A stretch of DNA of 64,000 bases from Cladosporium sp. IMV 00045. Lineage: Eukaryota > Ascomycota > Dothideomycetes > Cladosporiales > Cladosporiaceae. Shown here piece by piece: positions 33,826 to 64,000 of the stretch. The notes below the pieces were generated by a model, which made no database searches, was not told the origin of the DNA, and was given only the letters and a program-made list of their open reading frames with translations. Location of the stretch: contig MSJI02000897.1 of NCBI GenBank assembly GCA_001931905.2, forward strand, positions 124,001-188,000, given 5' to 3'. Position 1 is the first letter of the stretch. Each line of letters starts with the position of its first letter. Made by a program: the position numbers and the translations under genes.

Positions 33826-34025
33826 GGATGAAAGGATAGCGAGGTGGACTCCACTGACAGAACATACACTTGGCTCTCTCAATGCAGCGCAATGGACGAC
33901 AAGCACGCGCGACTGAAGTTTGGCCGAAGGCAAACAGGAAACAGGTAATGGTCATGACGATTTCATGGACGATCTACATATCAGACCGCCTTCCTTTCTG
34001 GAGTGACGTTCAACGCCAACTCAAT

Positions 34026-39081: not shown

Positions 39082-39366
39082 CTTAGTTTCCTGAGATTAA
39101 TGCATCAATTCCAAGACTTTTGTTCAATGGTGAGATTTGTTGGCTATTCTACTGGTTGGTAAAGACCAGTAAAGGTGAATGTACCGTTTCGCGGCGATCG
39201 TTTCCCAAGTGATCTACCGTAATATCGCATTGGCTTCGAAGTTGTACATGAACAAGGTGGGGCAGATTCAAGAGCTGACCAAGCCGTCTGGCAAGCTCTT
39301 TGTCAGCCAGAGGTCTGCATGTGATATTTTCACACTTCTTCCGAAAAGTGATATGTGGAATCAACA

Positions 39367-40539: not shown

Positions 40540-41463
40540 GACGATTTGAAACATGTTGTTATACCAGAGTCGAAATAATTGGGTGAGAGCTTTTGGTTTG
40601 CATGGAGTCAGTGGAGGTCTCGAATTCAGCCTTGTCGGTTTTGAATCATCATCAAATCATCAGATGCACAGGAGGATCAGATTGCCAGGCAAAGGTAAAA
40701 ATTGCACACGCCTGACAAGATGCCGGACGGCACAGTGATTAATTCGACCAGGTATCCCGGCTTCCGGCTGATAAGATCGACATCGCATCAGAGTCACAAG
40801 GATGTTCTCTCCCGTGAAGGCCAAAGTGTCAAAAAATCAATCCTTGAGCCCGCCCCACCCGACGTGCCCCCGCAAGCGTCGTAAACAATCGATTTTTTCG
40901 ATGTTGATTTGGTTGTGTGCTGTGTCAACGGAATTCCATTGACAGAACTGTCCTCGTGTTTGGTATACAGGTTTCGAGCTGCCTCTCTTGTATAAAAGAG
41001 AGAGTTCGAGCCCATTCGTCAGGTTACCTAGTTACACGACTGCGTTCATGCCTTGACACTTGCCCTGCATCTTCACGCGTGACTTCATCGCGGAGATGGC
41101 CTGTGGAGAATCGGTTGGAGGGCTACGTGCCTTGTGTGTTTTTCTCCTCTACTTTCGCCTCCCAAGCATTTCGTCATCTGTGGCACGCCGTGTGTACATC
41201 CGACGATGTATCTCACCTCGAAGGAAGAAGGGGGTCGGTGGCGGTGCTATGGCACAAACATGATCATCGTCATGTGTATATAACAGGCTTGATCCCTCCA
41301 GCTCGCTCAGTATACCTAACACCTATGTACCTACCTGCTCAAAAACAGACTTCACATTCCACAAATATTCGCGAATCACATACACATACTATTGGAGCAG
41401 CAGACAAAGCTCGCATCTCGAACTGCATATACACAATATCAAAACTCTAATCTATCTACCAAA
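40540..41463. other. Intergenic
   Basis: About 0.9 kb without a supported gene. TATATAAC at 41277-41284 may belong to the promoter of the small gene downstream. Confidence 0.5.
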
Positions 41464-41818
41464 ATGCCCGACATCGCACCCGAAGGTCCTCTCGACCAGC
41501 AGAAGGTTCGTCCCTACCACTTCCTTTCCCAAACACCCACACACAACCACCTCCTAACACACTCACGCATAGGGCCCCTTGAGCGTCGTCGGCGACCCCC
41601 TCGGCCAAGTCCTCGACAAAACTCTCAAACCCACCCTCGGTCACATCACCGGACAAGTCGGCCGCCCGGCCGGCGAGGCTTCTGAGAAAGTCGTCAACAC
41701 CGCCAGAAACGCGCACAAGTGGGAGGGTGACAAGGAGAATGTGCAGGAGAAGGACTTGCCGGGCGGAAAAAGGATTGGTGGAAATAGGCAGACGGCTGAG
41801 AACCCGTTGGGTTTGTGA
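41464..41818 (+). CDS. Conserved small hypothetical protein
   Basis: Two exons, 41464-41505 and 41573-41818 (67-nt intron, GTTCGT...CATAG), give 95 aa. The protein is Gly/Pro/Asp-rich and hydrophilic (PLSVVGDPLGQVLDKTLKPT, ITGQVGRPAGEASE) with no membrane segment or signal peptide. I do not recognise a characterised family. Similar-looking small proteins occur widely in filamentous ascomycetes, but that is from memory rather than a search. Confidence 0.65.
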
Positions 41819-41879
41819 GAGGGGAGGGAGGGGTGCTTCTGTTTGATTGATGATGCGTTGTCTTCCGACTTGGCTTTCA

Positions 41880-41901
41880 TTTCTTCTTCTTCTTCTTCTT
41901 A
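41880..41901 (+). repeat. (TTC)n microsatellite
   Basis: About seven TTC/CTT units in the 3' flank of the small gene. Confidence 0.85.
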
Positions 41902-42110
41902 CGGTTGTACGATAGCGAGCGTTGTTGCACTTGGGTTTTTAGCATTCGTTTGTTCCGTGACTGGATGAGGCATGATTATTGGCACTAGCATAAGTTCACG
42001 TTGTGGTCACGAATGTAACGGTCGAAACAACATCATTTATTAAAAACGCCGTCCCAGCTTGAGCCAAGTATGCATACAATATCTTAAGTGTATCTTCTTC
42101 ATATCCTCCC

Positions 42111-43175
42111 TTACGCCGCAGCAGTGGGCTTTCCACCGCTAGAAATCAAATCCAGGAAACCCTGCTTACTCATCTCGTTCATCCTCTCCTCCCTCTTACC
42201 AAGGCCGACCACACCTTCCTGCTTCGCCGCCTTGATAGCGCCCTCAGCCTTGACCTGGGCCGCTCTCACAGCGTTGAAAAGCTTCACCACACCTCGCTGC
42301 GCCGTCTTCTTCAATCTCTTCTCCTCCTCCATTACTTCACCAGTGGCTACATTCTCGTTCTCCAATCCTAGCACATCCTTGACACGACCCTTCTCAAGCA
42401 AAGCCCTCTTCTCGGTCTTGATTTGCGCGCGAGCCTTAGACTCGAGTCGCGAGTCTGCTAGGGACTTGTTCGCGTCGGCTGCAGACTTTGATCTACTGAG
42501 CACCGGGTCGGATCGTTTCGCTGTGCTGAGTTTCGTGTCGAGAATCTTTGACATGCTCGTTGCGAAAGCGTTCGGGTCGTTGCGCTTCTTCTTCTCAGCG
42601 GCCGCGTTGCTTGAGCTCATCGATGTCTCTGATTCCAAGTCGGAGTCTAGTTCTGGCTCGTCGTTCTCGTCTTCGTCTTCGCCCTCGTCTTCGTCGTCAT
42701 CCTCGCCCTCGCTGCTTTCACCCGTCGCGGGCTCGTCTTGGTCCTCCATGTCCTCATCTGCATCGCTCTCGTCCACCGCAGGTCTTGCGTTCAGTGCCGT
42801 GTTCGTCGCAGTGTCTTTGGTGTCGTCATCTTCGCTGTCGCTAGCCGGTGCAGGTTTCCTGGACTTGGCGGAAAGAGTGTGCTTAAGTATGGGCTTCGCA
42901 GGTGTTCCCTTGGGCTTTGCAGGAGTCTCGCTGGGTTTCTCGACGGGCTTCTCGGGCTTCGTGGCATCCGCAATAGATCTTGCTCGGAGTTCATCGTTCT
43001 TCTTCGAGCCTCTGGGTTTCAAGGGAATCGCATTTGATGTTGTTGCTGCATCCTCGCCTTCGTCTTCAGAAGAACTGTGGTATTGATCGAGTTTGTGCTT
43101 CGAGACGCGAATCTTTTTCTTCTTGGGGCGCACTTCGTCTTCAACCCTTCTACGCTTATGCTGTACTGGCGGCAT
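42111..43175 (-). CDS. rrp15: Ribosomal RNA-processing protein 15 homologue
   Basis: Single exon, 354 aa. The N-terminal half is a basic start (HKRRRVEDEVRPKKKKIR, nuclear localisation) followed by a long acidic, Ser-rich stretch. The Rrp15 domain occupies the C-terminal half: DPNAFATSMSKILDTKLS, KRALLEKGRVKDVLGL, RLKKTAQRGVVKLFNAVRAA and the terminal SKQGFLDLISSG. Nucleolar factor of the pre-60S particle needed for 27S pre-rRNA processing. Divergent from srp54. Confidence 0.92.
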   Translation of the reverse strand: MPPVQHKRRRVEDEVRPKKKKIRVSKHKLDQYHSSSEDEGEDAATTSNAIPLKPRGSKKNDELRARSIADATKPEKPVEKPSETPAKPKGTPAKPILKHTLSAKSRKPAPASDSEDDDTKDTATNTALNARPAVDESDADEDMEDQDEPATGESSEGEDDDEDEGEDEDENDEPELDSDLESETSMSSSNAAAEKKKRNDPNAFATSMSKILDTKLSTAKRSDPVLSRSKSAADANKSLADSRLESKARAQIKTEKRALLEKGRVKDVLGLENENVATGEVMEEEKRLKKTAQRGVVKLFNAVRAAQVKAEGAIKAAKQEGVVGLGKREERMNEMSKQGFLDLISSGGKPTAAA

Positions 43176-43467
43176 CTTGAAGGAATTACTTCTTTTGCGA
43201 AATCAGTAAGTAAACCTGAATATCTCGTCTGCAACTCGATCTTCTGCAAGCCAAAAATTAACGAAGCCTGGACCATCAAAGCGGAATCGAACCGCACTCG
43301 GCCTGGGCCGGCCGTGACTTCCCCGCCTGCCGTCTGTGGGGTGCTTGATTTCACTATTGCTGTCAACTTGTAGATGTGTCGCGCACTTTAGGATCTCGCA
43401 CTTGTCCATGTAATTGCGCCTCTTTCAACCCGACAACATCTCCTAGCATACGTGCAAAACCGTCATC
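43176..43467. promoter_or_regulatory. Bidirectional promoter region, rrp15 / srp54
   Basis: 292 bp between two divergent housekeeping start codons, short enough that regulation is probably shared. Confidence 0.55.
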
Positions 43468-45075
43468 ATGGTTCTCTCCGATCTCGGGCGGCGTATCAAC
43501 TCCGCCGTCACCGACCTCACCCGCTCCGCCACCCTCGATGAGAAGGCCTTCGATGGCATGATCAAGGAGATCAGCAATGCCCTCGTGGAAGCCGACGTCA
43601 ACATCAAACTGGTCACATCGCTCAGGAAACAAATCAAGACCGCCGTCAAATTCAACGAGCTACCTGCGCACGCGAACAAGAAGCGCATCATCCAGAAGGC
43701 CGTCTTCGATGCGCTTGTCGACATCGTCAACCCGCACCAAACTCCCTACAACCCCAAGAAAGGAAAGAGCAATGTCATCATGTTCGTCGGTCTCCAGGGT
43801 GCGGGTAAGACGACGACTTGTACCAAGCTGGCTAGATGGTACCAAGCCAGAGGTTTCAAGACTTGTCTGGTCTGCGCGGATACTTTCAGAGCTGGTGCCT
43901 TTGACCAGCTGAAGCAGAATGCTACCAAAGCTAAGATTCCCTATTACGGTTCGCTCACGCAAACGGACCCTGTGGTTGTGGCTAGAGACGGTGTGGAGAA
44001 GTTCAAGAAGGAGAAGTTCGAGATTATTATTGTCGATACTTCTGGTAGACATCATCAGGAAGAAGCTCTGTTCTCGGAAATGCAGGACATTCAGGCGGCA
44101 GTCAAGCCTCAGCAAACAGTCATGGTCTTGGACGCCTCTATTGGTCAGGCAGCTGAAGCGCAGAGCAGAGCTTTCAAGGATGCAGCAGACTTTGGTGCTA
44201 TCATTATCACCAAGACTGATGGTGCGGCGGCAGGTGGTGGTGCGATTTCTGCAGTTGCTGCGACGCATACTCCTATCGTTTTCATCGGTACCGGTGAGCA
44301 TCTTCTGGACATGGAGAAATTCAACCCGGAATCTTTCGTTTCAAAACTTTTGGGCATGGGCGACATGCAAGGCCTTGTCGACCACGTGCAGAGCTTGAAG
44401 CTGGATCAAAAAGAAACCATGAAAAACATCACAGAGGGCAAATTCACCGTCCGTGATTTGAGAGATCAACTGCAGAACATCATGAAGATGGGACCTCTGT
44501 CAAAAATGGCCGGCATGATTCCTGGTCTCAGCGGCATGATGGCCGGCATGGACGACGAAGACGCCAGTGGCAAGCTCAAGCGCATGGTTTATATTTGCGA
44601 CTCAATGACGTTGAAGGAACTGGACTCAGACGGCAAGATGTTCGTCGAGCAGCCCACACGCATGACAAGAGTGGCTCGTGGATCCGGCACATCAGTACGC
44701 GAAGTCGAAGAGCTCCTGACGCAGCAAAGGACCATGGCCGCAATGGCCAAGAACATGAAGGGCATGGCAGGAAACGCACAAAAGGCAAAGGCCGCAATGG
44801 GCGGTGGCAACAAGCAGCAACAAATGGCAGCGATGCAGAAGAAAATGCAGAGTATGGGCGGTGGTGGCCGTGGCGGCATGCCTGATATGAGCAGTTTGAT
44901 GAACATGATGGGCGGCGGAGGAGGAGGCGGCGGCGGTGGAATGCCGGATATGAGTAGTCTGATGAACATGATGGGTGGTGCTGGAGGCGGTGGTGGCGGT
45001 GGCATGCCTGACATGAGCCAGATGATGAAGATGTTCGGCGGTGGTGGTGGTGCTCCTGGTGGTGGAAGAAGGTAG
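43468..45075 (+). CDS. srp54: Signal recognition particle 54 kDa subunit
   Basis: Single exon, 535 aa. The N domain helices ([17 protein letters not shown]) come first, then the GTPase G domain with G1 [16 protein letters not shown]3 [11 protein letters not shown]4 [11 protein letters not shown]. The methionine-rich M domain binds signal sequences and 7S RNA ([33 protein letters not shown]). The C-terminal ~80 residues are three imperfect copies of a unit GGMPDMSxLMxMM separated by glycine runs, longer than in yeast. Binds signal peptides at the ribosome and targets them to the ER through the SRP receptor. Confidence 0.98.
44875..45055 (+). repeat. In-frame coding repeat in srp54 tail
   Basis: Three tandem, imperfect units of about 54-66 nt encoding GGMPDMS(S/Q)(L/M)M(N/K)M(M/F) plus a poly-Gly spacer of variable length. 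A site expected to vary in length. Confidence 0.8.
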
Positions 45076-47162
<2,087 letters not shown>

Positions 47163-47837
47163 AGTAATGAGGCAGAATCTTGTCGTGCAGTTAATGCAGA
47201 CCCCAGATCAGCATGCATATAGGTCTCATCTGGTCAACGTCTGTAATTTTAGACATATATGCCAACTAAAACTATGGAAACGGCTTGGGATTTTGTAAGC
47301 TTCTATGAAACAGCAACCTACAAGATCTCGTTTCGCGTTTCATTGAATCTAATCCAATTTCAACGAAGGTAGGTGATCCCACATGCTGGATGAAGGGATT
47401 AGTGATCCCGGATGTAGGATGCTTACGAACGTCTCCTGATCCTCGGCCTGGTCCAACTGTAATGATGACAAGCTTGTGTTTTTGTAATAGTACAACGAGT
47501 CACATTGAAAGTGCTTAGCTTTCAGAAAGATGTACTTACATGTGAGTAGATTTATGTGCGGGAAGCAACCGCATCAGGAGACTCAACGGCAGAGACGTAT
47601 GTTACTGATTGGAACGGCAATCAGCGGATGCCGTGCTCGATTACAATTAAAACTTAACACGAGAAGAGTTCGTGACAGATCGAGTTCCGTGAGGATGCAA
47701 TCCCATCTTTTAGTAACATACTCACTTTGAGCATTGACAAAGAATATAAGAGTCAGAGCGTGCCGCAAGACATCTCAATCCAGACCTGACACCCATTATC
47801 ATCAATCCTGATCTTGCAAGAACCACTCTTACTCAAA
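47163..47837. other. Intergenic
   Basis: No gene supported; short open frames only. Confidence 0.5.
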
Positions 47838-48611
47838 ATGGCTTCCAGTCCCATCAACGAGATGCTGTCTCGGAACAGGCAAGCCTCAATCGGGCCTCCC
47901 TATATACAATGCGCGCAGATTCTGACACCTTCTCCTCACATGCAGCAAGTTCGCGAAAGCTCACCAGCCTTCACCTCATATCCTCCAGATGACACCGCCG
48001 ATTCGAGCGTCTGGACAGGGCATGATCGTTATTTCCTGTGCAGATCCACGAGTTCCGTGCGAGCAGATCTTAGGGTTCGATGAACAGATCAGTATGCCTT
48101 CCATGGAACGGATTAATAAGATTCACGTCTGATGGTAAGCTTCCCAGATCCCGCCGTGATTCGAAACGCGGGTGGACGAGTATCCGACGCCATGAGAACG
48201 ATCGCGGTCATGCAATCAATCATTTCCCCAAGTTATATCATCGTCATGCATCACACAGGTATCTGCAATCTATCAATGATATCTCTCGCAGCATGATGGT
48301 ACTGACACGCTACACGCAGACTGTGGCATGATGCATTTTCTCGATCCAACAGTCCGCGAGACCTTGCTCAAGATCTCGCCGTCGAGCAAGAATGAAATTG
48401 AAGCCATGAAGTTTGGAGAGATCAGAGGCTCGTGAGTTTTACCAAAGTCGATACAGAAGTGCCCTCGGCATAACATAGTGTTCACAGGATCGAGGACAGC
48501 GTGAGAGAGGACATTGACGCTTTGAGAGGCTCACCTTTCATCAAGAAGGGCACCCAGCTGATTGGAATGAAGTACGACGTGGAAACTGGCAAAGCCACTA
48601 TTGTTGAGTGA
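47838..48611 (+). CDS. Beta-class carbonic anhydrase, five exons, GC-AG first intron
   Basis: Exons 47838-47878, 47946-48091, 48148-48258, 48320-48431 and 48488-48611 sum to 534 nt, 177 aa. Zinc ligands: Cys in VISCADPRVPCEQ, then His and Cys in IVMHHTDCGMMHF across the third junction. The Asp-Arg dyad is in CADPR, and VIRNAGGRVSDAMRTIAVMQ precedes them. The first intron starts GC (AACAG|GCAAGC) and ends at TGCAG; without it the conserved frame cannot be reached. At 177 aa it is a short beta-CA of the type common in fungi beside the longer Nce103 forms. Reversible CO2 hydration; no targeting signal seen. Confidence 0.88.
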
Positions 48612-49187
48612 TCGCTTTTCGTGATGGCTAGGCATACGGCCGATCATGCTTGGAAGAATAGTGATCTTCGTGAGGGCTGAACTGTTGCGAGTCATAGGAC
48701 AGCGGTACAAGTAGTACTCTTGAGTTCTTCGGAAAGTTGCCAATTCCTTCAGATAACATCTTACCTCATGACATAGCTTTTGATTGTTCATCGATTTGCT
48801 GAACACTCTTTCACGCTGCTGGTACGGTCCCTTTTAACTCGAGTATGTGATGTGTCGTGGCTGTTTGGTAGCCTTTGCTCAAAGCTTCATGTGGAAACAC
48901 TAGCTGGTCGTAGAACGTTGCCAAGTTCAACGACATTATTGCGGAAAGTTTCCAACGGCATCAATGCGATTGATGAAGCTCAGAAGGAGTTGACTTAGTC
49001 AGTATCTTCACAGTTGGAAGAACCCCGGCCTGACATGATCGACACTTAGCAAAACTTGATCGACAGCTAAAGAACCCCTGTATATTTCAACGCTCGTCAC
49101 AAAATATCTATTTAAGACCATTGCTCTTGATCTTGCTGGATGCTCATTTCTGAACATCACCCTTATCTCAATAGAAAACCACACACC
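48612..49187. other. Intergenic, upstream of the CFEM gene
   Basis: No gene supported. Confidence 0.5.
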
Positions 49188-49513
49188 ATGAAATCCTTCT
49201 CACTCGCCATCATCTTCGGCTTTATCGCTGCCACGCAAGCCCAATCGATCGAAGAACTCCCAGAATGCTCCAGGCCATGCGTATACGGTAGCGTAGCCTC
49301 ACAAACGAACTGCTCTCCCAACGACTTTGGTTGTCTTTGCGCCGATGACAACCTCAAAAAGATACAGTCCGACGGTGCCAACTGTGTCCTATCAAACTGT
49401 GGAGCACAGACTGCTTTCAGTGAGGAGTCACTATCATCTCTTGGTGTTTCTTGCTAACACACATATCCAAAGACGAAGTCGTCCCTGCAATGAACAGGCT
49501 GTGTGGCCTCTAA
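49188..49513 (+). CDS. Small secreted CFEM-domain protein
   Basis: Two exons, 49188-49419 and 49473-49513 (53-nt intron, GTGAGG...CAAAG), give 90 aa. The signal peptide is KSFSLAIIFGFIAATQA. The CFEM cysteines are all present: LPECSRPC, TNC, FGCLC with the Asp of FGCLCADD (the axial heme-iron ligand position in Csa2-like CFEM), ANC, SNC and RLC. There is no GPI-attachment tail, so it is a soluble extracellular CFEM protein; such proteins act in heme capture or as effectors. If the intron is retained, the frame reads on to a different 105-aa end that also finishes with a cysteine (LGVSC). Confidence 0.9.
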
Positions 49514-50003
49514 GTCCGAATCTGGACAAAGGCCCTGATTGAAACTTTTCATGAGCAACTACTTTGCAGCACTCAGCTATACTATTGCTTGAATGGTTGG
49601 AATTGTGCTTGAATCGACGAAGCAGCAGCGGTCTCGGCGCGGGGTTGGAATATAGCCTCTTATCGATGTGTTTCAACAACATTAGCATGGCAATAGAGCA
49701 TTTGTCACAAAGCTCCAAACAAGCGATTTGACTCTGATGTCGCTGCCAAATTTCATCGGTCTACCCATGCCACAATGAACCCACGGCTAGGATGCGTCAC
49801 GGACAGATTATGGAAATCACATCGTACCGCGATCATTGCCCGTACTATGGCCTTCGATAGGCCACACCTGTTACCTTCCGCATGGTCCCTTGGCGGCAAG
49901 GCCCGAAGAAGAACGATTCTCCATGATCATATTGTGTTCGTCAATCATAAGTCGGGCTAGACACAGGATCCAGCTGCCGCAAGAACGCAGCGTAAAGGTG
50001 TTT
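49514..50003. other. Intergenic
   Basis: No gene supported. Confidence 0.5.
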
Positions 50004-51637
50004 TCATGAAAATGGAATCGGTGTTTTCACCTGCCACCGGAACGCGTCGGGTGCTCGCTCTAGCCAAGTGACATCGCGGCCATTTCGCTGATAGAATATC
50101 CACGTGTAGTTCCCGTTCTGCATGGCACTCATGTGAGTACCCGATGAACCCGAAAGACCACTTGCAGGCGATGAGGCATAACTGCCAGCGCGCGTATAAA
50201 AGTCGTGCCAGTTCATTTCTGCGACTAACATTGTGTTTGCACCGTTTTCCGGATAAAAGGCGTGTTCGCGGGTGAATGAAAGTGATGATGCGGGATGGAC
50301 GTTGGGGACTTCATATTCCGCTGCAAAAATTGGTCAGTTTGGTTGCCGAAGTAGCAAGCAAGTGGGTACCAACCTTTCTGCCATTCTGCTTTTGTATCAT
50401 CGGTTGGCTGGTACCAGAACTCGAGTCGGTTGCTGGGACGCACAAGGCCCACGTATCTGTTGTATCCAACGCCGGTATGGCAACCAACGCCAGCAGCCGC
50501 ACTGTAGTCTGGCCAGGTCTGCTGCCAGACCCACTCGTCTTCATTGGCCTTCCAAAGGTACTCTTCGAATGATGTACTGTTAAAGGCGTAGAAAAGCCTG
50601 ATAGGAATGCTTTCGTTGATCGCGCTATCACATGCTGCCAGCCCGACCAGATCGCCATTCCATGCGGTCAATCTGGTCTCTGATATCGAACCTTCAGTCC
50701 ATCGATTGTTGCCAGACCGTTGCCGTATGTAGTCATCGGAGTCAATGTCTGATCCAGCTATTAGTACAACATGAGGAAGCATTTCGGCGCAGATGACAAA
50801 GTTTCAAAAGAGCACCAACTTACAAAACACGTTCCAGTAATTCGTGCCATTCGAGGTATATTGCACTGCAGAAATTGGCGTGCTGTTTCTGGCATCCGTT
50901 GCGACTACTAGAAGGCCTTGTGGGCCTTCTTTCCATGAGAAGTCTGAAGTCTGACGCATCCAGTGGATCTCGCCGGAATGATGTTGAAAGTACACCACGT
51001 GGCTGTTTTCATTGGTAAAGAGAATATCATCCCAGTCTTGAGTGAAGTCTTGTCAGATGTACGCGATCCCGGATCCGTTCCATGCCCCAGATTTGGTGTA
51101 GTATGACGGATCTATACCACCACCAATCTGGAGCAGTTCGTTCGCAGTAGGCGTAGCAGAAGAGCCCGGTGTTGGAGAGGTGGTTGGGGAAGCAGTATGT
51201 GATGTCGGCGATGTAGAAGACGTCTCGCCTGACTGCCGCGAAGAAAAGCCTACTCCCAAGCCTATTGCGAGCGCGGTCACAAGCAGGACCGCAATTAGGA
51301 GGGTCCAAAAAAATGTTCGTTTCATTCCGCATATTCGACGGCTGGTGTTGGGCTTGTGAGATTTGTAGCCATGCCAGTCTGACGGGACAGAAGATCCGAC
51401 AAGCCTATCATTGGAAGGTACAACTTCTTTCTCCTCATGGTTGAATACTTGTTTCTCGCCTTGGTCAACATTGTTGACAATGTGTTTATCGTTTTCATGA
51501 GCCAGCGTTACTTCAAGGCCAGGATGTGCGAGGGGATCCTTCAGTACGGATAACGAGGGCTCTTGTGCCTCCGGCGCGTGATGCTGGTCGAAGGTGCCAT
51601 TGAGGTATGCATTACCGTCTTGAGAGCGGTCAACCAT
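50004..51637 (-). pseudogene. Membrane-anchored fungal fucose-specific lectin gene with in-frame TGA
   Basis: Three exons, 51637-50824, 50748-50374 and 50320-50004, total 502 codons in phase. Order: acidic cytoplasmic N-terminus, one transmembrane helix (TFFWTLLIAVLLVTALAIGL, about residues 105-128), a Ser/Thr/Pro stalk, then a beta-propeller like fungal fucose lectins (blocks VVYFQHHSGEIHWMRQ, PISAVQYTSNGTNYWNVF, RLFYAFNSTSFEEYLW, LEFWYQPTDD, WIFYQRNGRDVTWLER). Codon 195, at the start of the propeller, is TGA (51053-51055), between GSGIAYI and QDFTQDWDDILFTN. No intron with usable sites removes it. CGA to TGA is one transition. As written the product is a membrane stub without the lectin. 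Recently inactivated, or read through. Confidence 0.8.
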
Positions 51638-53968
51638 GCTGGGAGATAGATCGAGGTGCAATGTCAATGACGCCACTGAGGGGCGCAGAGGGGCTCTGCC
51701 GATACAAGAAATTGGCAACAGTCCATGAGATCGTATTGAAACTTCTAAGGAGGCTCGTCAGGGCTGTATATCTCCGAAGGAAGTTCCAAGATGCATTCAT
51801 TCAGCTGAGGCGCAACTGGTGTGTGATATAAGGGACCGAGTATGGTTTAATTGGACAAGCTCCGCCACGCGTGCATCGAAGGATTCTCAGGTGCAAATAT
51901 AGTTTGAGTCGGGTCTTGAGCTTTGGTGCAAAGCTCTTGTACATCATTGCAGCACCATGATTTTGGTCTCCATTAGGGCCACCTATACGCAAGATTGACT
52001 GACTTACACATCCAAGCAATTGCGATATGCGAACAAGCAACACATCTTCCCACGTAAAGAATTTCGAGCGTTGACCCTTTTGTAGGATCACCGTGGCGCA
52101 CAAAGACTGACTCTTGGAAACAGGATGGCTGTACGGTGGTAGTACATCATCTGCTGGCGCGGCTCACAGCAGGCATGTCCCTGTTTTTGTTGGGTATTGC
52201 TGCGCTGGTGAACACTGGCCTAGCCGAGTAGCCAATGACTAGGCTTCTTGCAGAGTTGCACAAACGCCTTTTCGAGGAAGAGCACGTGAAGTCGACTGTT
52301 GGCAAGGATGGAGTGTGGATTGTCTTGGAGCAAGAGGGAGGAGGTCAACTGTCTGGATGCCGGAGAGGAACAGACGAGAGTTTCTGCCTCAGGCTTTCAG
52401 CTGACCTCGCAACTTCCTTCGCTCCACTGTTTCTTTTCCTGTCACGTCTCCTGTCCTACTATCAACCAACTTACAGCACTGCTCACATCTTATGGAATGC
52501 GAGATTTGCAAAACTGTCTTCTTGAACCATGTCTTAGCTACGGGAGTTATGCTTCTGGTGGAGCTTCCACCTCTTGTGACCGACGAAAGCGAGGATCTGA
52601 CACCCGATCTTGCATAGACTTGCGAGTGTCCATAACTAGATATTGATGCTATGGCCGAGCCACGTGCTGCGCCTCAACCTATGAGGCTGATTGTTCGTGG
52701 GGCATCCATGTCTTGCAGGCAAATTTTAGTACATCAAAGGCACATCATTCCTTACTTCAGTAAGCCTGCTTACCTTATCTCCTTCTTCGCTAACGCTCAG
52801 CCTATGCAGTGACTCTACGAGTAACAAACCCATGAAGTCGATCCGCTTGATATTCTGCATCAGGGCTATTCTCTTGAGCCTGGACGTTCTAGCAGACGCC
52901 ACTACCCATACACAAGGCCGAACCCAAAGAATCGCCATGGCACTACAGCTCTGGATTCCATTGGGGGCCAAAAGACATATACATTGAGGCCAGTCTATGC
53001 CCGATATTGTCGGATGCAGATGTCTAGCATGATAATGCCTGATTTCGTTTCATAGCGTAGAAAGCACCTTTCCCGATCGCTGGAAGGTCTCAAGTCGCCA
53101 GGTCCATTAGATATATCGCTCGGCCAGATATTGGGCAATACATCGAGTGGGTACAGAGGTCTCGAACAGGAAACACTTGCGACATATCAAACTGGTAACA
53201 GTTGGAGTTGAACAATCCTAACAATACTCCTTTTAAGGACTTGCGGTGAGAATGTCATTTGCATAACACTGATGAATCACAGCCCTAGTTGCTCGAACGT
53301 TCGTAGCGAATTCTTCGCGCTTGCCGAAGGAGTTCAACAACGAACGATACTGCCTGGATGACATGTCCATCGCTTATTTTTTGGATCATTCACCAATTGA
53401 GATATTGAACGCATTTTAGCAATTCCCTAATGCTCAATATAGCTTAGCTTATGCAGGGGTATTGGAAAAGCATGCAGCCCACGTGTGCAACATACTGGAT
53501 CGCGAGTCAGTTGTAGATATTGCACCAAAGAAGGTTGTGGCTGTAAACATAGATGAGGTCTGAAGCGTAGACCGACAATCAGGCCGCCAACAAAATCCTT
53601 GGCTTAGATCGATAAACACGAGCTGGATGCAACGAACCTATTAGGACTCATCAAAATCGAAGGACAATTTCTCGGAGTTCTTAGGATCAAGGCTGAGTTT
53701 TCCAAAACCAGAGACGACAATGCAATTGGAGATAATGTGTCTGTTGGTTGGATTCAAGGAATTACGGACCTCCCAAAACGAGAATAGCACTCTGCGTTCT
53801 ATTCATCGGAATACTCAATGTGACAGCAGGTGGTCCACCACCTAAGACAAGTTGCTCAGTCCGAATGTCTATAAGAGAGCATCCCGAACACTACATTTTT
53901 GCTCGTTCATCACACAAAACATATCTTCCAATTCCATCATCCGATAAGAACGACAAGACACTAGCATC
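51638..53968. other. Long intergenic stretch
   Basis: 2.3 kb with no supported gene on either strand; gene-poor compared with the left part of the window. Confidence 0.45.
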
Positions 53969-54580
53969 ATGAAACTATTCGCCCTTGTTATGTTTGCTAC
54001 AGCAGCTATGTCTGCTGCCACTCCGGGCTCAGGCGACATCGAATCCTTGGTCGAGCGGGACGACAGCGACCTGGGCTCCGAACTCATTCCTGGTGAAGGC
54101 CTCCCGTCGCTGGAATCCCTGGGTTTGACTACTGCGGACCTGGAGGATCCCGACTTTGCGTCTAAGCATGGCCTCGAGGACGACGATGAAGAGCTCGAAG
54201 CTTACGAGGCACGATTCGACACTTTCACGACCGCCGCGAGCGCCCGGTTCCCAAACCAATGCCGGCCTCGTTACTTTGTTCCCACCCCCCTCAGAGGCAT
54301 CAGGTCATGCCGCAACTATCTCAGGAAGCTCGGTAACACGATGTGCAGGCTTGGTGGAGAACTACCTGGTGTGCCTGGCACTGCACAGACTACCTTCTGC
54401 CACCACGGTATCGCTCATATCTACGGCCACGGCAAACCTCGCACAGCCAGCTATTGCAAGCATGTAGCACGTGGTGTCACCTGGGGACTGAAGAACTGCG
54501 TCAAGAACAAGAAGGTGGCCAGTCTTGCAGCAGCTTACGGCAATGGAGACTTACAGGTAGCTGCTCAGAAGTGGAACTGA
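53969..54580 (+). CDS. Small secreted cysteine-rich protein (candidate effector)
   Basis: Single exon, 203 aa. The signal peptide is MKLFALVMFATAAMSAATP. An acidic propeptide-like region (about residues 20-85, Glu/Asp/Leu-rich) ends near YEARFDTFTTAASARF. The C-terminal ~115 residues are basic with six cysteines (NQCRPR, RSCRNYL, NTMCRL, TTFCHHG, ASYCKHV, LKNCVKN), enough for three disulfides, and a GVTWGLKNC motif. The arrangement signal-acidic pro-basic cysteine core fits a processed secreted protein. No characterised family recognised. The neighbours are lectin, HET and NACHT genes. Confidence 0.75.
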   Translation: MKLFALVMFATAAMSAATPGSGDIESLVERDDSDLGSELIPGEGLPSLESLGLTTADLEDPDFASKHGLEDDDEELEAYEARFDTFTTAASARFPNQCRPRYFVPTPLRGIRSCRNYLRKLGNTMCRLGGELPGVPGTAQTTFCHHGIAHIYGHGKPRTASYCKHVARGVTWGLKNCVKNKKVASLAAAYGNGDLQVAAQKWN

Positions 54581-54940
54581 GGCAACTGCTTGAGCATAGC
54601 AGCTGTCCGAGGATCTTGTGAAATGGAGGTTTGGTAGTGCCGATGGCGAGGTGCAGATGGCTGTTCCAAAATCGTGCGAGGAGGGCGGTTGCTCAAATGT
54701 AGATAAAACCGGAGCTGACCAGCCATTCAACTGGCTTTGAGTTGACGTTGAGTTCATCGGCCATTCAACTGGCGGATCTAGAATTGATGTTATACAACAC
54801 TGTATCTATTGAAATTGATCCGGAAATGCTCCAATATCATGCTTGTCCAATACATCCCTGGATACCATGAAACATAGGTCGATCATGTACATCATTGCCT
54901 GCTAAGACGTGAGTGATCCACTAGAAATTAGGATCCGCTG
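54581..54940. other. Intergenic
   Basis: No gene seen. Confidence 0.45.
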
Positions 54941-55260
54941 AACTAACCATCCATAATGATGCATCTCCCTCTGTCGACTGATCTACTGCACAGTGCGAGA
55001 TCCGCTGGGCATTATTCCCGCTCCGATACAAGTTGGACAGGCAAGCAGCCTCAACGCTGCACGTAACCTGACTTACAATGCGGAGTGTTTGACAAGATCC
55101 TGTGGGCCTTCCTGCCATGACAAGTCCGAAGTCTGAGGCACGCAGTAGATCTCGCCGGAATAATTGGAAGTACGTCACGTTGCTGGGATGGCTGTTAGAG
55201 GGAAGATCATCCCAGTCTTGAGTGAAGTCATCGTAGTGGTGCATAGAGACTCCTGAAAAC
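54941..55260 (-). pseudogene. Fragment of a second fucose-lectin gene
   Basis: On the minus strand, from about 55230 down, the DNA repeats the propeller start of the lectin gene at 50-51.6 kb. GACTTCACTCAAGACTGGGA is identical in both. The following codons stay alignable (NSHPSNVTYFQ against ENSHVVYFQ), then one or two bases are lost and the alignment resumes in another frame (SGEIYCVPQTSDLSW-like against SGEIHWMRQTSDFSW). Only one blade or so is left, with no start, membrane anchor or remaining blades. A decayed tandem duplicate. Confidence 0.7.
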
Positions 55261-56113
55261 AGGGTTGGCTACAAGAGGAAGGTGTTACACCATCACCTGC
55301 CAAGATGCTACTGGCAATAAGCATGTACATGGCGAGACTCTCCATTTTAATTGGGTAGAGGATCACATGACCCTGAAGACTAGAGACCAAGAGATACACG
55401 ACACAAGCCTGTCTTGTCATTTTTCATACTGTCTCCGTATGATCGTTAGCGCCTGGTATGCTTTGTTGCAACCCCTACTTGCCGGACCTTCTGTGTAAAG
55501 TGGGTTTTGTTGCGTCTCAAGTCTCTAACTCGCCATCTTTCACAGTCGAGCTCCAATTATTATAATTGCTCTGCTTGCGCAGTCGATGGCCAACGCGAAT
55601 CATGCCCTGCTGATAGCTATGAATAGGTGAAGCGCAACAGACGAGGCATAAGAATCAACGTGTAAGGAAAGGTCTAACACATATTGTCAAACAGGTCGCG
55701 GCAAAGCATCTCTCTTCGAATCCCCGGGCTCGAAACGGTCTATCTACTTATTAGTAATGATGCCTGCCGTTAGAATATGCGCGGCAAATGGGCAGAGCAG
55801 ATATATTCTTGTCATTTGGTTTGCAAGCCTGTAAGACCTGCACTCATCTGTGAAACATTGCAACGTGGCCGACACAGCTTGTGCTCAGGCTGCATATGCA
55901 GCTGCGGTAGCCTTGGTCAGTGTCGTGGTCAGCTCATGATAGCCAGAATTAGGTCTCTGCATTTACATCTTCGCATCCGAACGGAGTTACAGCTACGGTC
56001 AAGCTGGGAAGTTCTGGACGCTCGACAAGAACCATACAGGATCCACGGCGCGACAACTTCCAGCGTTCTACCAAACATACCCTCTAAGTTGGCATTTCTG
56101 GTTATCTCCTAAC
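55261..56113. other. Intergenic, upstream of HET gene
   Basis: No gene supported. Confidence 0.45.
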
Positions 56114-58644
56114 ATGCCCCTGCTGTCAGTTATGCCCAGTGAGTATTCGCAAAGCATAGCCTAGTGAGTAGGCGCTGAACGCAGGACTAGACACCTATGC
56201 TGTGATCGAACCCACCGAACTGCCAGAAATTATCTCGCAGGGTGAGCCGTGGAAAATCTATGAAGAGCTTAGAGCTGAACATTGTCGACCTTGTGAGCAA
56301 AGATACAACGCTTTTGAGAGACGGAAAGGGTGCATCAAGCAAAGGTTCAGTAACCTGGAGAGAAGAAAGATCCGGAGCGCTGAACGGAGCGATGATTCTC
56401 AGCGGATGGATGAAGCTCGAAAGATGTTGCATGTGGACCAAGCCTCCGTCATTTCACCAGCAGGTTCACGTTGCAGAGCATGTGATGTTCTCTCGACCAT
56501 CTCCCGAGGCGTTCTTGAAGCATATGGCATTGTGTACTCGGCGAACATCTCGCTCGAATGGTTCGCTCACCGTTCCCAGTTGCTCGTGAAGGGCCCGAAT
56601 GAGAGCCAGGCCAGACTGTTCCAAATCTTCATACCAAGAGGTGAGACTGCCTGAGGTGAATATCAAGGTGGCATCATACTGAGATACAGCAGGAGGCGGT
56701 CTGCCTGTCCAAGGTTTTCGCCAGTGCGGGACTTTACACGGTGATACTTCGAGAAACGAATCCCTCGATCGTGCCAAAGTGTGGATCGATCATTGCGAAC
56801 GCCATCACGGCTGCGGCAGCCATCGCGACGATCGCAAATTGCCAGGTAGACTGCTCGATCTTACGCCAATTGAACGCAGCTCCAACGCCCCATCTGAGCA
56901 CACGAAAACGAGATCGTGGTGGCATCGGAGATCGTTCAAAAAAGGCCCGCGAGACTTGCTTTCTGATCCAGCGAGTACATCCCAGGGCATCAAGATCGTG
57001 AACTCGTTTCCCAGAGATGTCAAATGGGCCAGTCTTTCCCATTGCTGGGGAGAGACCCAGAATCCTATCATGTTGAACAGGAAGACCTATCAACAGTACC
57101 ATGACTTTATAGATACTGAAAGACTGCCCAAGTCGTTCCAAGACGCCATTCGCATCTCACGCTACCTTGGTCTAAGGTATCTTTGGATCGACTGTTTTTG
57201 TATCATACAAGGCAGTCCCGTTGACCTCGACGTGGAGGGAAGCAAGATGGCTGATGTATACCGTGACAGTTACGTTGTGATCGTCGCCGCAGCCTCGAAG
57301 GATTCACATGGTGGATGTCTAATCGAATCCGACCCAGACAAATTCCTCCGCATCACAATCGCGGATCAACAGAACCTCTACTTTGGGGTGCGACAATGCA
57401 AGTTTACAAAAAAACTTGAGAATTCGAACGACATCTACAACGATTTTCCAACGTACCAAAGAGCTTGGTGCTATCAAGAGCAAATCTTGGCACAGCGACT
57501 CCTCTATTGCAATCCTCAGGAACTCGCTTTTCAGTGCCGGTATAAGCGTACATGCGAATGTGGCACACCGACCATGGCACCTCATATCACTCTTTCTCAC
57601 GGTGGTTACGCTGCAGGGGAGCTTGTGTCAATGAGAGACGAAAGATTGATCGCGACACTGAACCAAATTCAGGGTATTCCATACAGTCTCGCGGACATCA
57701 ACAAATGCTGGGAGACGGCCGTCTCATTGTACTCGAGGCTGGGTTTGAAGCGTCCTAAAGACCGACTTGCCGCCCTGTCAGGTCTGGCGAAATCGTTCCA
57801 GACTCTGCCGGGCCAAGCGACGTCCGACAATACATATCTATCGGGACTATGGCGGAAGAGTATCAGAGCGAACCTTCTATGGCGAGTCCCGGACCCTTGG
57901 CATGAACAAAATGGGCGCCCTCGTACATTCAGAGCCCCTTCGTGGTCTTGGGCAAGCGTTGACACACCCAATGGCGTAGACTTCCAGCGACGCTCATGTT
58001 ATCAGAACTCCTGGCTCGATATGTCGGACTGGGAGGGTTTCCTAGTCGATGCCAACAGTGTCCCAGCCGCAACAGACACCACCGGAGCCGTCAAATCCGG
58101 ATTCCTGCGTTTCGAGACACATCTGCGAAGAGCTCATATACGCATGGTTTGTGGTTACTGCAAGAAAGGCATCAAGCATAACGCGAATGGCAAGCGGGTG
58201 CATCTGGAGACCGACAACTGGCAGCATCTGTGCACTTTTCGGGAAGAAAGTGTACAGACTTTTGGAGGTGACTTCAAATTCTTCAATGACTGCACGCTGA
58301 AGAACAGTCCCGGTGTTTACTGGAAAAGTGCAATCGGCCCTGCGAAGTTCAGCAAACGCTGCATGCTGGCAGAAATCTTTTTACTTCACGTGGCGGAGAG
58401 CGTGGCCCAAATGAATCGCGTTGATCACTTTTTGGCTTTGAAAAAAGCAAAAAGGCCGTGGTGGAGGGCAGCATGGCGATATCTTTGTTCGTTTGTGACG
58501 AGAAAACGCTGTCATCCAGAGTATCAAAGGATTGGCCTGGTGGTCATGGTTCACAGAAAGTCTGAAACCAGAAAAAGATGGTTTGACGTCGTTTGGAAGA
58601 CGGCATTAACATCAAAAGACAAGATTTTGATTGACTTGGTGTGA
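56114..58644 (+). CDS. HET-domain protein (heterokaryon incompatibility), 811 aa
   Basis: Three exons, 56114-56138, 56185-56640 and 56690-58644 (introns 46 and 49 nt), sum to 2436 nt. The N-terminal ~200 residues carry the usual HET leader with CRACDVLSTI, ARLFQIFIPRG and VWIDHCERHHGC. The HET domain (about residues 245-400) has all three blocks: VKWASLSHCWGE, LPKSFQDAIRISRYLGLRYL followed by WIDCFCIIQGS, and AWCYQEQILAQRLLYC. A C-terminal region with RAPSWSWASVDTPNGVDF follows. HET proteins trigger programmed cell death when incompatible hyphae fuse. Intact here, unlike its neighbours. The 5' mini-exon is the least certain part. Confidence 0.88.
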
Positions 58645-59313
58645 TCATAGAGAGCTATGGGGCGATTCAATGTGCGGCTTGTTGTATCACTTCTGATCCG
58701 AGAACGAAGTTTGCCAGAGCTTGTTATCAGCGCATCCCAGAGCTCGTGCTACGTGCAGTGGAACAGTTTCTGCTGGCTAATACAGACGCGACTATGGATA
58801 GCTTCAAGCATTCGGATAATGCTGCTATGTTACGATACTGAGCTTTCCCTAATAACACCGCAAATTCTCTCGAAACAATTTCGTGACACTCATGATTCAC
58901 CAGTGTCATTGCCGGGTTTTCCTGATCTTGTCACCTTCGCATGAGCTGCAAGGTCTTGTGGCATGCTGATGGTCATCGGCACTGGCTCAGACTGTTTCCT
59001 GGACAGTAGCGCCGTGAGCGCTAGCAGTTGTGGCGACCTATCACGGCATGTACAAGATTGAACCAAAGTGGTGACACCGGGGGACTGAGCTGAGTGTCGA
59101 CTTTGCTGACTGCAGCTTCTGGCAATCTACGGCTCGCCGCAAATGAGTGGTTGCCTTGATTCATATGCAGCCAATATGAGTTGCATGCAGCTGTAGCTTC
59201 AGCTTTGGTTATGTAGCGTCAGCTCCATCACAACCTCTGCTCATTTTCTTTGCCTTGGGTGCCAACGGTCAAACTACGTACCGAGCTACTTTGCTATAAC
59301 TCAATGCCTACTC
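58645..59313. other. Intergenic between HET and NACHT genes
   Basis: No gene supported. No in-frame ATG is present here that could start the NACHT gene. Confidence 0.45.
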
Positions 59314-61737
59314 GTGGATCCTTTGACAGCATTCAGCCTGGCAGGTACCGTCATCCAGTTCGTGGATTTCACTTCGAAGCTCATCTCGACTACCCGACAG
59401 ATAGCTGCGGAAGGTGCCAGATCCGACTACCTCGATATCAAGAAGCAGACTCTGGGATTCAAGTGCTTCTCGGAGGATCTGCAACCGAGGATTGCGATCG
59501 ACCCAGTCAAAGCATCTCAAGGTGACCACGACCTTTGGGAGCTATGTCGACAAGGGCAAGAGATTGCGGAGCGCATGCTGAAAGTGCTTCAAGGCTGCCA
59601 TTCGGACCAGGCTAGCGGCAAAGTCTCACTCGACATTTTTGTGCGAGCTGTGAAGAGTAAATGGCATCATGCTGGACTTCAAGAGCTTCAAGCCAAACTT
59701 GATCAGATTAGCTTGAGGGCGCAGCCCTTCATCGTGAGAAGCAATCACATTGAGCTGATCCAGAAGCTCTCTAAGCTTGAAGCATTTCTTCAGGAGCTCG
59801 GAGCAGATCGTTCCGCCAACCTGAGAGGTTTGCAAGAAGCACTTGAGGAACTCCGACACGCCAAGAATGACACCTCCGACCATTCGAGAGTCATTCGGAG
59901 GTTGACGACAGGCAGTGGTCTTGCTCACAAAGGACATGACTACATGGTAGAGGCCGGCGTTCTCGAACAACTGAGATTCAAAGACATTGACCGCCGATTG
60001 CAGCAACTTGAGCAAAGACCTGCTCACAGGAAGTCATATCTCTGGATGCACGAAAGTGATCAGCAGAACTCAATAAAAGGTCGAGCACCATCAAACTTTC
60101 ATCCTTGGCTCATGTCGGACTTCAAGCTCTACTGGATTACAGGCAAGCCAGGAAGCGGAAAGAGCACCTTGATGAAGTTCCTCTACCAAGATCCGGAGAC
60201 CGTCAAAGCATTACAAATCTGGGCTGAGGGGAATGAGCTCCTGATCGGAGCGTACTTCTTCTGGGAGGTCGGTAAAATCCCTCTGCTTCGAACGAGAGAG
60301 GGCTTACTTCGCACACTGCTCTTCCAGATCTTGAGACAGCAACCCCATCTTATCAAGTCCATGTATCGTGACCTGTGGTCTGTGTACGGCATGAATGTTT
60401 CTCACATTCCAGGTGGAGAGCATGACTTCGATGGGCTCGAGGTGTCGACCAGCTACTCAGACCTTGTGTGAAGGATGCAAATTGCGTGCGAGTCGATTGC
60501 CGTGTCTGGAAGATACCTTTGCTTGTATGTTGATGGCCTCGATGAGTATGGTGGTGATTCGGATGATATACTGTGGCTCCTGAAGATCTTCACGGAAATT
60601 CGACATGTGAAGATCTGCGCGTCGAGTCGACCAGAGAACGCTTTCATCCAGGCTTGGGAAGAGACCGGAAAAAAATTGTACATGGAACACTTCAACGACG
60701 CCGACATCAGCGCTTATGTTCGCGACACCCTTGAGGCTGACCCCAATTACCAGGATATGGATGATCGAGGCATCGCGAGAATTGACTTGGCCCAAGAGAT
60801 TGTCTCGCATGCCAAGGGAGTGTTCTTGTGGGTACATCTGGTTCTTGTAGATCTCAAAGAGGGACTGAGAAACCGAGATACCCTCGATCAATTGTGGCGG
60901 AGACTTCATGATCTGCCCAAGGATCTTGAAGACTTTTTCCTGCACATATTGTTCAAGCGCATCCCTGAGTTTTACCGACAACGGTCAGCCGCCATGTTTC
61001 TCATATCGTTAGATGCCGTGGACCTGCTCCCTGTGATTGCCTGCTGGTACATCACTGAAGGCTCATCCGAGCTCGACAAAGATCGTGATGTCAGACAAGC
61101 CACGATGCTGAGCAATAACAGACGTCGCAAGGAAGTCCAAGCACGGCTGAACGTGGACTGCAAAGGCCTCCTCGAAGTACAACACCAATCGCTGCCCGCT
61201 AAACTTGAATCATTAGCAGGCAGTATCCTCTACAGCCAGAAGGTGAACTTCTTGCACCGGACCGTCCGAGAGTTCTTGTCAAAGCCAGAAGTGAGCCGTC
61301 AACTAAGCTTGTGGTTGCCAGCTTCAGTGGATACAGATGAGATGATATGCAAAGCATTGCTTGCACAGATCAGTACTTCCCCAACTACGGCAGAATTCTT
61401 CTCATCCGAAGGGCCGATCTCAGACCTGGTCGAAATGTTTGTGAGCCATCATGCAAAGTTACAAAAGAGGTCAAGACAGGCGACTGCAAAGCAGCTCCTT
61501 CAGCAACTCGCATCAGTGTTGCCATCACAGAGTGTCACCAACGGCAACACGCTGGCATCCAAAATGCAGGACAACTCAACGCCTGCGCCAAGTGACCTCG
61601 GTTCCTGCGTCGGAGTGCCTCAGACTAATGGATCCAGCTGCAGCAAGTCTCCAGACAAGTCTATCAAAAGTTCGGAGCCTAGAATTTGGTTCCACAAGGG
61701 ACTTAGCAAGATAGGCTTGCGGAACATGGGAGACTAG
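59314..61737 (+). pseudogene. Helo-like NACHT STAND receptor gene, start lost and in-frame TGA
   Basis: One uninterrupted frame of ~808 codons apart from a single TGA at 60469-60471. The N-terminus DPLTAFSLAGTVIQFVDF is the fungal STAND N-terminal (Helo-like) domain. The NACHT P-loop is ITGKPGSGKSTLMKFL (about residues 270-285). After the stop, the frame resumes with Walker B LCLYVDGLDEYGGD and sensor ICASSRPENAF, then VFLWVHLVLVDL. There are no WD, ANK or TPR repeats. Two lesions: the codon where the family has its first Met is GTG (59314), with no usable in-frame ATG upstream, and CGA-like to TGA separates the Walker A and B halves. As written no full NTPase can be made. Otherwise clean, so inactivation is recent. 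Confidence 0.85.
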
Positions 61738-62397
61738 ATTCCACGCATTAGCGCTGGCTTCGTACCCCTCATAGCCAATGTCAGTCCAATAATGATGACA
61801 CTCTACCGTCGGACTATCGTGGTCTACTAATGTAGATACCAGCTTCTCGCTGGCACGAATAGATGGTCACCATCCTTTATCATTTGTGTCACGCAAGGAC
61901 ATAGGTTTCAGGCTCTCCCTTCTCCAGCTCCGCCGCTTCCCCATGCATGATGCCAAGGACAAAGCATTCCCCAACAAGAATAATTGTTGGTGAAGTCACG
62001 CACGCTCAAGTTTCCAAAGCGGCAATCACGCAGAAGGACCAATGTAGATTGAACCGAGACCTGGTGGCTTTGCAAAGAGTTTCGTAGGGCGGCAATAGTG
62101 AGCATTGTCACAAGAGTTCCTGCCTTCACGTAATTGTATCGCCCATACAAGCAATGAGCTCTCACCGCAGACGACAACAGATCCCAAGAGATGGCGACCG
62201 AGTTGAGAAACAGGCTCGGCTTTTTGGAAGATAAAATGTCCCCAGCGTTCCAAATGCTGAAGCGGAATAGATGTTAGTTCAACTGCAAAGGTAATGCGCG
62301 GTATGACTTTGTTCAAACCTTTCAGACATAAAATCTTCGAGAAACTTGTTGACGCAATCCCACACATTTTGCTCGACGTCAGCTGATGACCATTTCC
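61738..62397. other. Intergenic with possible remains of the HET-like gene
   Basis: On the minus strand about 62270-62390 has a protein-like frame (KWSSADVEQNVWDCVNKFLE) that may be the displaced continuation of the truncated HET-like gene. Confidence 0.4.
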
Positions 62398-62970
62398 CTA
62401 CAGCAATTCGTATCGCTCGTGATAGAGAGCCAGGTCGGTACTGGTGATTTTAGGGCTTCCGTGGAGTACACTCGAACCGAGAGGGTGAATGACATGATCT
62501 TGGGAACTTTCTGTGTCGAACACTTGCGCTCGACAGAACATCTCGCCAAGCGTCGCAAGCTCGATCAAGAATAGTCTTGATGCCTCCGACAAATCTGCTG
62601 TACTGAATAACAGAGTCTCAGTAGCTGCCCGCAGTATTTCATGACTCCATGCAGCTGAGTAATCTTCATAGCCGATGCAGATCTCTTCGACCCAGAAAAG
62701 GGTGTGGCCTCGCGGATTCTTTCGCAAACTCAATAGACGCGTATACGATTTTTCGCGTATGACCAGATGGGCATTGTTACATATGATTTGCACAGTGCCG
62801 AATGTGACTAATTGTTCCGGCAAGGCCGCGAAAGGTGGTGCACTCTGTAAAGGAATAGAGATCAGCCGAATCTCCAGAGGGTCGTTCCGGTCGCCGCAGG
62901 GTATGATTTCAAGCAAGCGTATCTCCCCTGGATCGAGATCAAGATATTCGTAGGGTCTCGTGGCTTCCAT
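62398..62970 (-). pseudogene. Truncated, divergent HET-like gene
   Basis: The start is probably the ATG at 62970 (MEATRPYEYLDLDPGEIRLL); 190 codons to TAG at 62398. The opening YEYLDLDPGEIRLLEIIPCG and LEIRLISIPLQSAPPFAAL is the standard lead-in of HET proteins. The second block is degenerate, LFWVEEICIGYEDY where HET has LWVDAICINQxD. The frame stops soon after, and the adjacent frame carries further protein-like text. At under 200 aa it is far shorter than usual (500-800). A decayed or minimal HET gene on the opposite strand from the intact one. Confidence 0.55.
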
Positions 62971-63801
62971 ATCGCGCGTTGCGCGGCCAGCCGGGCCTCG
63001 CTCGTTTCGCAATTAGGGAAAAGTGCGTCTTTGTGAAGGCTGGAGACCGGAAGGCTGTGATCATGTCATAGCTGCCAGAGATTCTCGAGAGATTTCCAAA
63101 AGCTGAGCAAGAGTCGTCTCTATCTGCTGCCACCCCCATTGGAGCTCAAGCGGTCAGCCGCATATGGTGGCTTTGTCATGTGTCACCTATCTGATGTGTG
63201 CCCGTCCATGTGACAGCGAAAAGCCAGTGTACTTGGGGCACAGATGCAAATAGAGAGGGCCGTGAACGGCAGCATCTTGAAGTGCAGCTTACGCCTGTCC
63301 TCTCGTCTTACATGCATGCCCAACATGATTCCAGACAAAATTCAGACAAGCAAAACATGGTCGTTGTCCTTGAACTCCACGATCCTCCAGATTAATTGCA
63401 GATTGCAGTTTCAGAGTTCAGGTTTTGGCATGCTTGACAATCAACGTAGCTTTTCCCGATAACATTCATCAGCCTTGATTCGTAGCATTCGAAAACCAGA
63501 TTCCAGGTGTCAGAAGTCCAGACTCAGGAGTTTTGGTAACAGTGATAAGAGATTTGGGATTTGTGATGATGTCTTTGGTGTCGCAGCTAATGAACGGATC
63601 ATGTGTGTAGAGGAAGAATCAGAGTTGGCTCTCGCCACCAAATTTGCTGCGTGGAGAAAACTTCGCACTTCACCAGTAGAACTCGTTGCACACTCTCTCC
63701 AACAACTGTTATGGCATCCAAAAACAGCATACAACAGCGAAAACATTGCATCTTAATGCTAGAAAGAATTTCATTTGAAGAGACCCTTACAATTTTCAAA
63801 C
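62971..63801. other. Intergenic
   Basis: No gene supported. Confidence 0.45.
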
Positions 63802-64000
63802 ATGGGCCAATATGACCGCAAAAAGCAATCTCAGCCAAAACACGGAAAGCCCAGCGATAGCGGTGCATCCAAAGCCCCAGTACGACCAACTCGAAACTTG
63901 CCTGGATGGAAAGGTCCCAGCTACGTTCCCAAAAAGAAAACTACTGTGAAACCAACACCATCGGCAACACCAGAGTCGCCCAGCTTAAACCATGCTCTCC
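63802..64000 (+). CDS. 5' end of a gene, truncated by the window edge
   Basis: An ATG at 63802 (MGQYDRKKQSQPKHGKPSDS) opens a frame with no stop to the last base, 66 codons. The text is Lys/Pro/Ser-rich and basic (NLPGWKGPSYVPKKKT), like a disordered N-terminus. No domain is visible yet. Confidence 0.45.
   Translation, partial: MGQYDRKKQSQPKHGKPSDSGASKAPVRPTRNLPGWKGPSYVPKKKTTVKPTPSATPESPSLNHAL

Follow-up and report, generated by a model that had tools for sequence, protein, structure and literature searches.

A probable turnover pocket of lectin, HET and NACHT genes in a partly duplicated Cladosporium genome

Genes at the locus and its second copy

In this study, we analyzed a group of genes at 49–63 kb of a 64,000-nucleotide stretch of DNA from Cladosporium sp. 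IMV 00045 (the window; G000:C893:124001-188000, from a 49.87-Mb assembly of 954 contigs). The original prediction had listed seven gene items there (a CFEM protein, a lectin, a secreted protein, a second lectin remnant, a HET protein, a NACHT STAND protein and a HET-like gene) and had read them as a sensing-plus-execution unit under birth-and-death or balancing selection. All seven were located (Table 1). A DNA search with window 45–64 kb identified a diverged copy in the same gene order on contig C173, of which 20,231 bases were compared. The copies align at 43498-45370 (90.5% identity), 46173-52507 (84.9%), 53797-54956 (87.7%), 58819-61974 (86.8%) and 62015-64000 (82.3%).

Table 1 Features at the locus, in window coordinates
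Feature	Position	Strand	Basis
CFEM secreted protein, 89 amino acids, intact	49188..49457	+	Pfam CFEM (E 6.6e-11); alignment with C173
Membrane-anchored lectin, fungal fucose-lectin kind	50004..51637	-	Gene model; relatives
Secreted protein, 203 amino acids, intact in both copies	53969..54580	+	Comparison with C173; alignment A1; models
Block in window copy only, in place of C173 membrane-protein gene	54957..58732		Comparison with C173
Lectin scrap, ~135 bp	55094..55229	-	80.9% to window lectin, 81.8% to C173 lectin
HET protein, 811 amino acids, intact	56114..58644	+	Pfam PF06985
Scrap of C173 membrane-protein gene	58733..58796	+	DNA match; tblastn
NACHT (NPHP3_N) + DUF7791 STAND gene, 807 codons	59314..61737	+	Pfam; comparison with C173
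HET-like gene, degenerate HET region	62000..62970 (lower end approximate)	-	Comparison with C173

The HET gene is intact, as had been proposed, with three exons (56114-56138, 56185-56640 and 56690-58644) separated by two short introns. Its product matches the Pfam HET profile over the full length (positions 1-146 of 146, E 1.2e-25) and is thus a HET-domain protein. The best-scoring paralogue in the same genome is 31% identical; outside it, three relatives at 60–64% identity all come from metagenome or read-assembly records, and the next stands at 31%. A sequence search of the PDB returned no relative of the HET protein.

The HET gene lies in a block whose sole homology to the C173 stretch is the lectin scrap. 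Against that stretch the HET protein gave nothing better than E 0.16, and none of the 86 HET matches in the genome lies on C173. At the position of the block, C173 carries a 652-codon open frame (636 codons if counted from the presumed ATG), found once in the genome, which has three hydrophobic segments by a crude count and no Pfam match at E up to 1. A scrap of this membrane-protein gene adjoins the block in the window, on the same strand and in the same order as on C173 (56 bp at 82%, 20 residues at 80%); its DNA match scores 57.2 bits, compared with at most 29.2 in 60 shuffles. On the simplest reading of these sequences, the membrane-protein gene was present in the ancestor of the window copy and was displaced by the HET block. 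Since the HET haplotype bears this scrap, we rejected the view of the two genes as idiomorphs. A mobile element carrying the HET gene was likewise rejected, as the terminal 600-base stretches of the block share one 10-bp match only; transposase genes were not searched.

The lectin gene was modeled with three exons (51637-50824, 50757-50374 and 50320-50004) comprising 504 codons and a membrane segment. In the window it is broken by one in-frame stop at codon 196, in place of which the C173 copy has a frameshift in the membrane segment. While its own sequence had no Pfam match above a cut-off, 10 of 49 relatives, at 29–36% identity, contain PF07938, and others are named fucose-specific lectin; a sequence search of the PDB found no relative. 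The predicted second lectin remnant proved to be only a scrap, about equally far from the window and C173 lectins.

The NACHT gene matches NPHP3_N (E 2.2e-13) and DUF7791 (E 8.1e-21) and has a P-loop (GKPGSGKS), providing the NACHT-type NOD of a fungal NLR protein. The C-terminal WD, ANK or TPR repeats of such a protein gave no profile match at E up to 0.1 after the stop, and the gene ends about 115 residues past DUF7791. Its predicted "Helo-like" character was not confirmed: no HeLo-like profile matched the N-terminus at E up to 0.1 in the window or up to 1 in the C173 copy. The window gene has GTG at the start where C173 has ATG, and an in-frame stop at 60469; the C173 copy keeps the ATG and has one stop at a different codon. 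The HET-like gene, which starts at 62970, is truncated as predicted, by an in-frame stop at 62395-62397 and a 3′ deletion relative to C173. The C173 copy is longer and spread over two frames, possibly by an intron. Beyond these two copies, the HET-like gene gave three weak matches (E 6e-7 to 9e-4), all overlapping Pfam HET matches.

In the secreted protein, we set apart an N-terminal part (residues 1-91), with a signal and an acidic stretch recognized by inspection, from a C-terminal domain of 111 residues with six invariant cysteines (alignment A1); this division is our own choice. A 98% identical relative is known from read assemblies only. For models of two family members, the first-ranked fold matches were KP4 and Zt-KP4 (PDB 1kpt and 8acx), at 7–11% identity, the second fold comparison being limited to the families it listed. 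The C-terminal domain may therefore have a KP4-like α/β fold, as predicted from these models. None of six family members matched the Pfam KP4 profile at E up to 10, a range in which HMMER filters drop most matches above 0.1. Foldseek returned no significant match in the PDB for either model or in BFVD for the Aspergillus family model, and a sequence search of the PDB found no relative. KP4 has ten cysteines. The window protein resembles KP4 and Zt-KP4 in being small and secreted, with a family of which two members have them as first-ranked fold match, but it differs in having six cysteines, a long acidic N-terminal part and no Pfam KP4 match. In Fusarium graminearum, KP4-like genes are reported to be induced by contact with another fungus (PMC9506348).

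Divergence and lesions between the two copies

Synonymous divergence (dS) between the window and C173 is 0.43 in the flanking SRP54 gene, 0.32 in the 3′ part of an amine-oxidase-like gene, 0.24 in the CFEM gene and, for the HET-like gene, 0.31. The names given to flanking genes (SRP54, RRP15, glucosidase II and amine oxidase) are putative and were assigned by their sequence. In the lectin gene it is 0.31 in the inner and 0.15 in the outer part, and the two parts of the secreted protein gene show 0.29 and 0.16. Along the NACHT gene it amounts to 0.19, 0.25 and 0.45, only the last part reaching the level of SRP54. Balancing selection, one of the two modes originally proposed, is not borne out by these values: in this comparison of one pair of copies, with no population sample, no gene is clearly above the flanking dS, as an old balanced polymorphism should be, and whole-gene dS for the lectin outer domain, the secreted protein and NACHT is 0.15–0.31 against 0.43 for SRP54.

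The C-terminal part of the secreted protein has no replacement change and 12 silent changes relative to C173. The ratio of nonsynonymous to synonymous divergence (dN/dS) is 0.09 for CFEM, whose C173 copy is shortened by an in-frame stop near the C-terminus, 0.25 over 378 codons of the lectin outer domain, 0.21 over 804 codons of NACHT, where no indel occurs over 806 codons, and 0.53 over 190 codons of the HET-like gene. The low ratios of lectin and NACHT indicate that both were maintained through most of the period since the copies diverged, each copy breaking separately afterwards; from this we infer that the breaks are recent. Birth-and-death, the other mode proposed, is supported by the HET gene standing in one copy opposite a different gene and by the lectin, NACHT and HET-like lesions differing between copies. 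Repeat-induced point mutation was rejected as the source of the stops because C-to-T type differences between the copies do not favor CpA (counts before A, G, T and C of 223, 289, 265 and 204, respectively). Dinucleotide indices at 48–64 kb are within the range of the remaining window, small differences apart.

One could ask whether the breaks are assembly or sequencing artefacts, or are read through, such that the genes are functional. Each gene copy does have one lesion in a frame that is otherwise open, and dN/dS is low. However, the ATG with which NACHT starts on C173 is also missing from the window gene, and the kinds of lesion (stop, frameshift and deletion) vary between genes and copies, which makes this explanation very improbable.

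HET, NACHT and lectin genes across the genome

Profile searches of the genome gave 86 HET matches and 133 NPHP3_N matches (125 when merged), the latter from scoring 150 of 171 NACHT candidates. Separate HET and NACHT genes lie within 5, 10 and 20 kb of each other in 3, 6 and 9 pairs, respectively, with 2.2, 4.3 and 8.6 expected when contig ends are ignored; their proximity is at chance level. Counting five fused HET-NACHT genes as well raises the numbers to 8, 11 and 14 (P 0.002, 0.005 and 0.06). In these fused genes, on C676 (7855-9132), C154, C155, C503 and C685, the two matches are less than 1 kb apart in open frames of equal length; four of the five score identically and could be repeats of a single gene. 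Furthermore, C2:30178-49710 and C687:26449-46176 each contain a HET match, a distant glucosidase relative and a NACHT match in the same order and with similar spacing, the NACHT match having a stop on C687 and none on C2.

Relatives of the lectin are spread over eleven contigs. The best-scoring paralogues, on C928 and C183, have no stops in their matches, and their contigs contain neither HET nor NACHT matches. On C811 (5096-6054 and 9265-9696), a lectin relative with an internal stop and a HET match stand about 3 kb apart. This HET match, at 30% identity, ranks with the better-scoring paralogues of the window HET gene; the chance of one or more such cases among nine loci is 0.14.

These data bear on the idea of an allorecognition locus, in which a surface lectin senses, HET and NACHT execute, and polymorphism is held by balancing selection. 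Known modules of cell death or recognition include HET and NACHT, the fused genes raise HET-NACHT proximity above chance when counted in, and the C811 locus has a lectin relative near a HET match elsewhere in the genome. The HET gene is also present in one copy and absent from the other, and presence/absence and idiomorphic architectures are described for het-V and het-Q of Podospora (PMC10890737). On the other hand, both would-be sensors are broken in both copies, the HET gene has no counterpart in the C173 copy, separate HET and NACHT genes lie close together no more often than by chance, the contigs of the best lectin paralogues hold neither, and a case such as C811 has a probability of 0.14. 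dS is not raised except to the level of SRP54 in the last part of NACHT, and the membrane-protein scrap makes the pair unlike old idiomorphs. An allorecognition locus is therefore improbable. Of the 132 HET genes of Podospora, only 4 act in incompatibility (PMC10890737), so that finding one intact HET gene does little to identify an incompatibility locus.

The genome itself appears in pairs at many loci. Among 60 HET and NACHT loci (the 30 best of 86 HET and the 30 best of 133 NACHT matches), 20 pairs align over at least 900 bases, 18 of them at 76–94% identity; two of the 20 are copies on one contig. Paired matches were also present in another gene family, and the gene upstream of SRP54 (presumably RRP15) has a 97% copy on C173. 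A DNA search of window 25001-44000 had given no second copy, yet it missed the C173 copies of RRP15 and of the start of SRP54; negatives from that search are therefore unreliable. The paired loci together indicate that the genome is duplicated at many loci. A gene presumed to encode glucosidase II alpha (window 1-2130) gave a single locus in the genome search, whereas SRP54 and RRP15 have second copies, so the genome is either not wholly duplicated or not fully assembled. It is thus at least partly duplicated, and probably a hybrid. Hybrid diploids of Hortaea werneckii are described with differing HET sets and a maximum of 43 HET and Het-C type proteins (PMC9535773), compared with 86 HET domain matches here, counted by different methods.

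The duplication raises another possibility, namely that two diverged haploid genomes fused and that selection, rather than drift, inactivated harmful recognition genes, breaking lectin and NACHT separately in both copies, while the killer-toxin-like protein was kept and a new HET gene entered one copy. The same genes carrying different lesions in each copy after long purifying selection, and the H. werneckii precedent, would fit such a course. Stops within domain matches point the same way (14 of 86 HET, 22 of 133 NACHT and 0 of 19 short-chain dehydrogenase matches, the last scored from 413 candidates). At equal rank, however, the excess does not reach significance (6 of 38 versus 0 of 19; P 0.16), and some stops may be intronic, as the matches were made regardless of introns. 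Moreover, the HET gene itself is intact, the lesions are undated relative to hybridization, and the hybrid origin is itself something we infer. We consider selective disarmament unlikely, at about the level of the allorecognition locus or slightly above it. Among the literature matches listed, nothing was to the point on pseudogenes and NLR genes in hybrids. In nine other HET or NACHT pairs, dN/dS is 0.10 to 0.53 (ten of the 20 were tried and one, out of frame, was dropped), and one HET pair (L008 and L019) has stops within the domain match of each member, so the window locus may not be the only one broken twice.

A turnover pocket and its relation to known systems

We interpret the locus, with a probability of roughly 0.7, as a dispensable pocket of gene turnover and not a working self-recognition unit. 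It lies between better conserved genes of a genome that is at least partly duplicated and probably hybrid. The birth-and-death part of the original interpretation is thereby retained, while its sensing-plus-execution unit and balancing selection are given up. Lectin and NACHT evolved under purifying selection once the copies had diverged, and each copy has its own lesion; HET would have replaced the membrane-protein gene in the window copy. The secreted protein, acting extracellularly as a KP4-like antifungal or an effector, would be the component still in use. The HET protein would be an ordinary family member that triggers cell death on its own trigger, without the neighboring lectin or NACHT. 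The two copies give a history of the locus, in which a gene was gained, a gene was lost, genes were broken twice and a gene was kept.

Parts of this arrangement have likenesses elsewhere. In Neurospora crassa, HET genes are mixed with lineage-specific genes of unknown function (PMC10684091), as here. Most of those lineage-specific genes are next to telomeres and clustered with 61% of HET genes, whereas the window pocket sits between better conserved genes and separate HET-NACHT proximity is at chance. Podospora het-B likewise ties HET and lectin folds to recognition, but its lectin fold lies within the HET protein (PMC10890737), while the window lectin is a separate, membrane-anchored and broken gene. 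In the Podospora incompatibility response, genes of the KP4, Hce2, HET and NACHT families are induced together (PMC3689799), in a genome-wide regulation unlike the single locus here.

The main lead has two sides, namely recognition-type genes that broke in both copies within a duplicated genome, and a secreted protein that is strictly conserved and perhaps KP4-like. If parallel breakage is common in the genome, the escape of hybrid fungi from their own incompatibility systems becomes testable. The secreted protein belongs to a small family that has no Pfam match here and, judging by predicted fold and strict conservation, is a candidate for a new KP4-like protein.

Upstream of the locus, at 46018-47162, the presumed amine-oxidase-like gene is split across two overlapping frames in both copies; its 3′ part has a dN/dS of 0.23 between window and C173, with one stop set aside.
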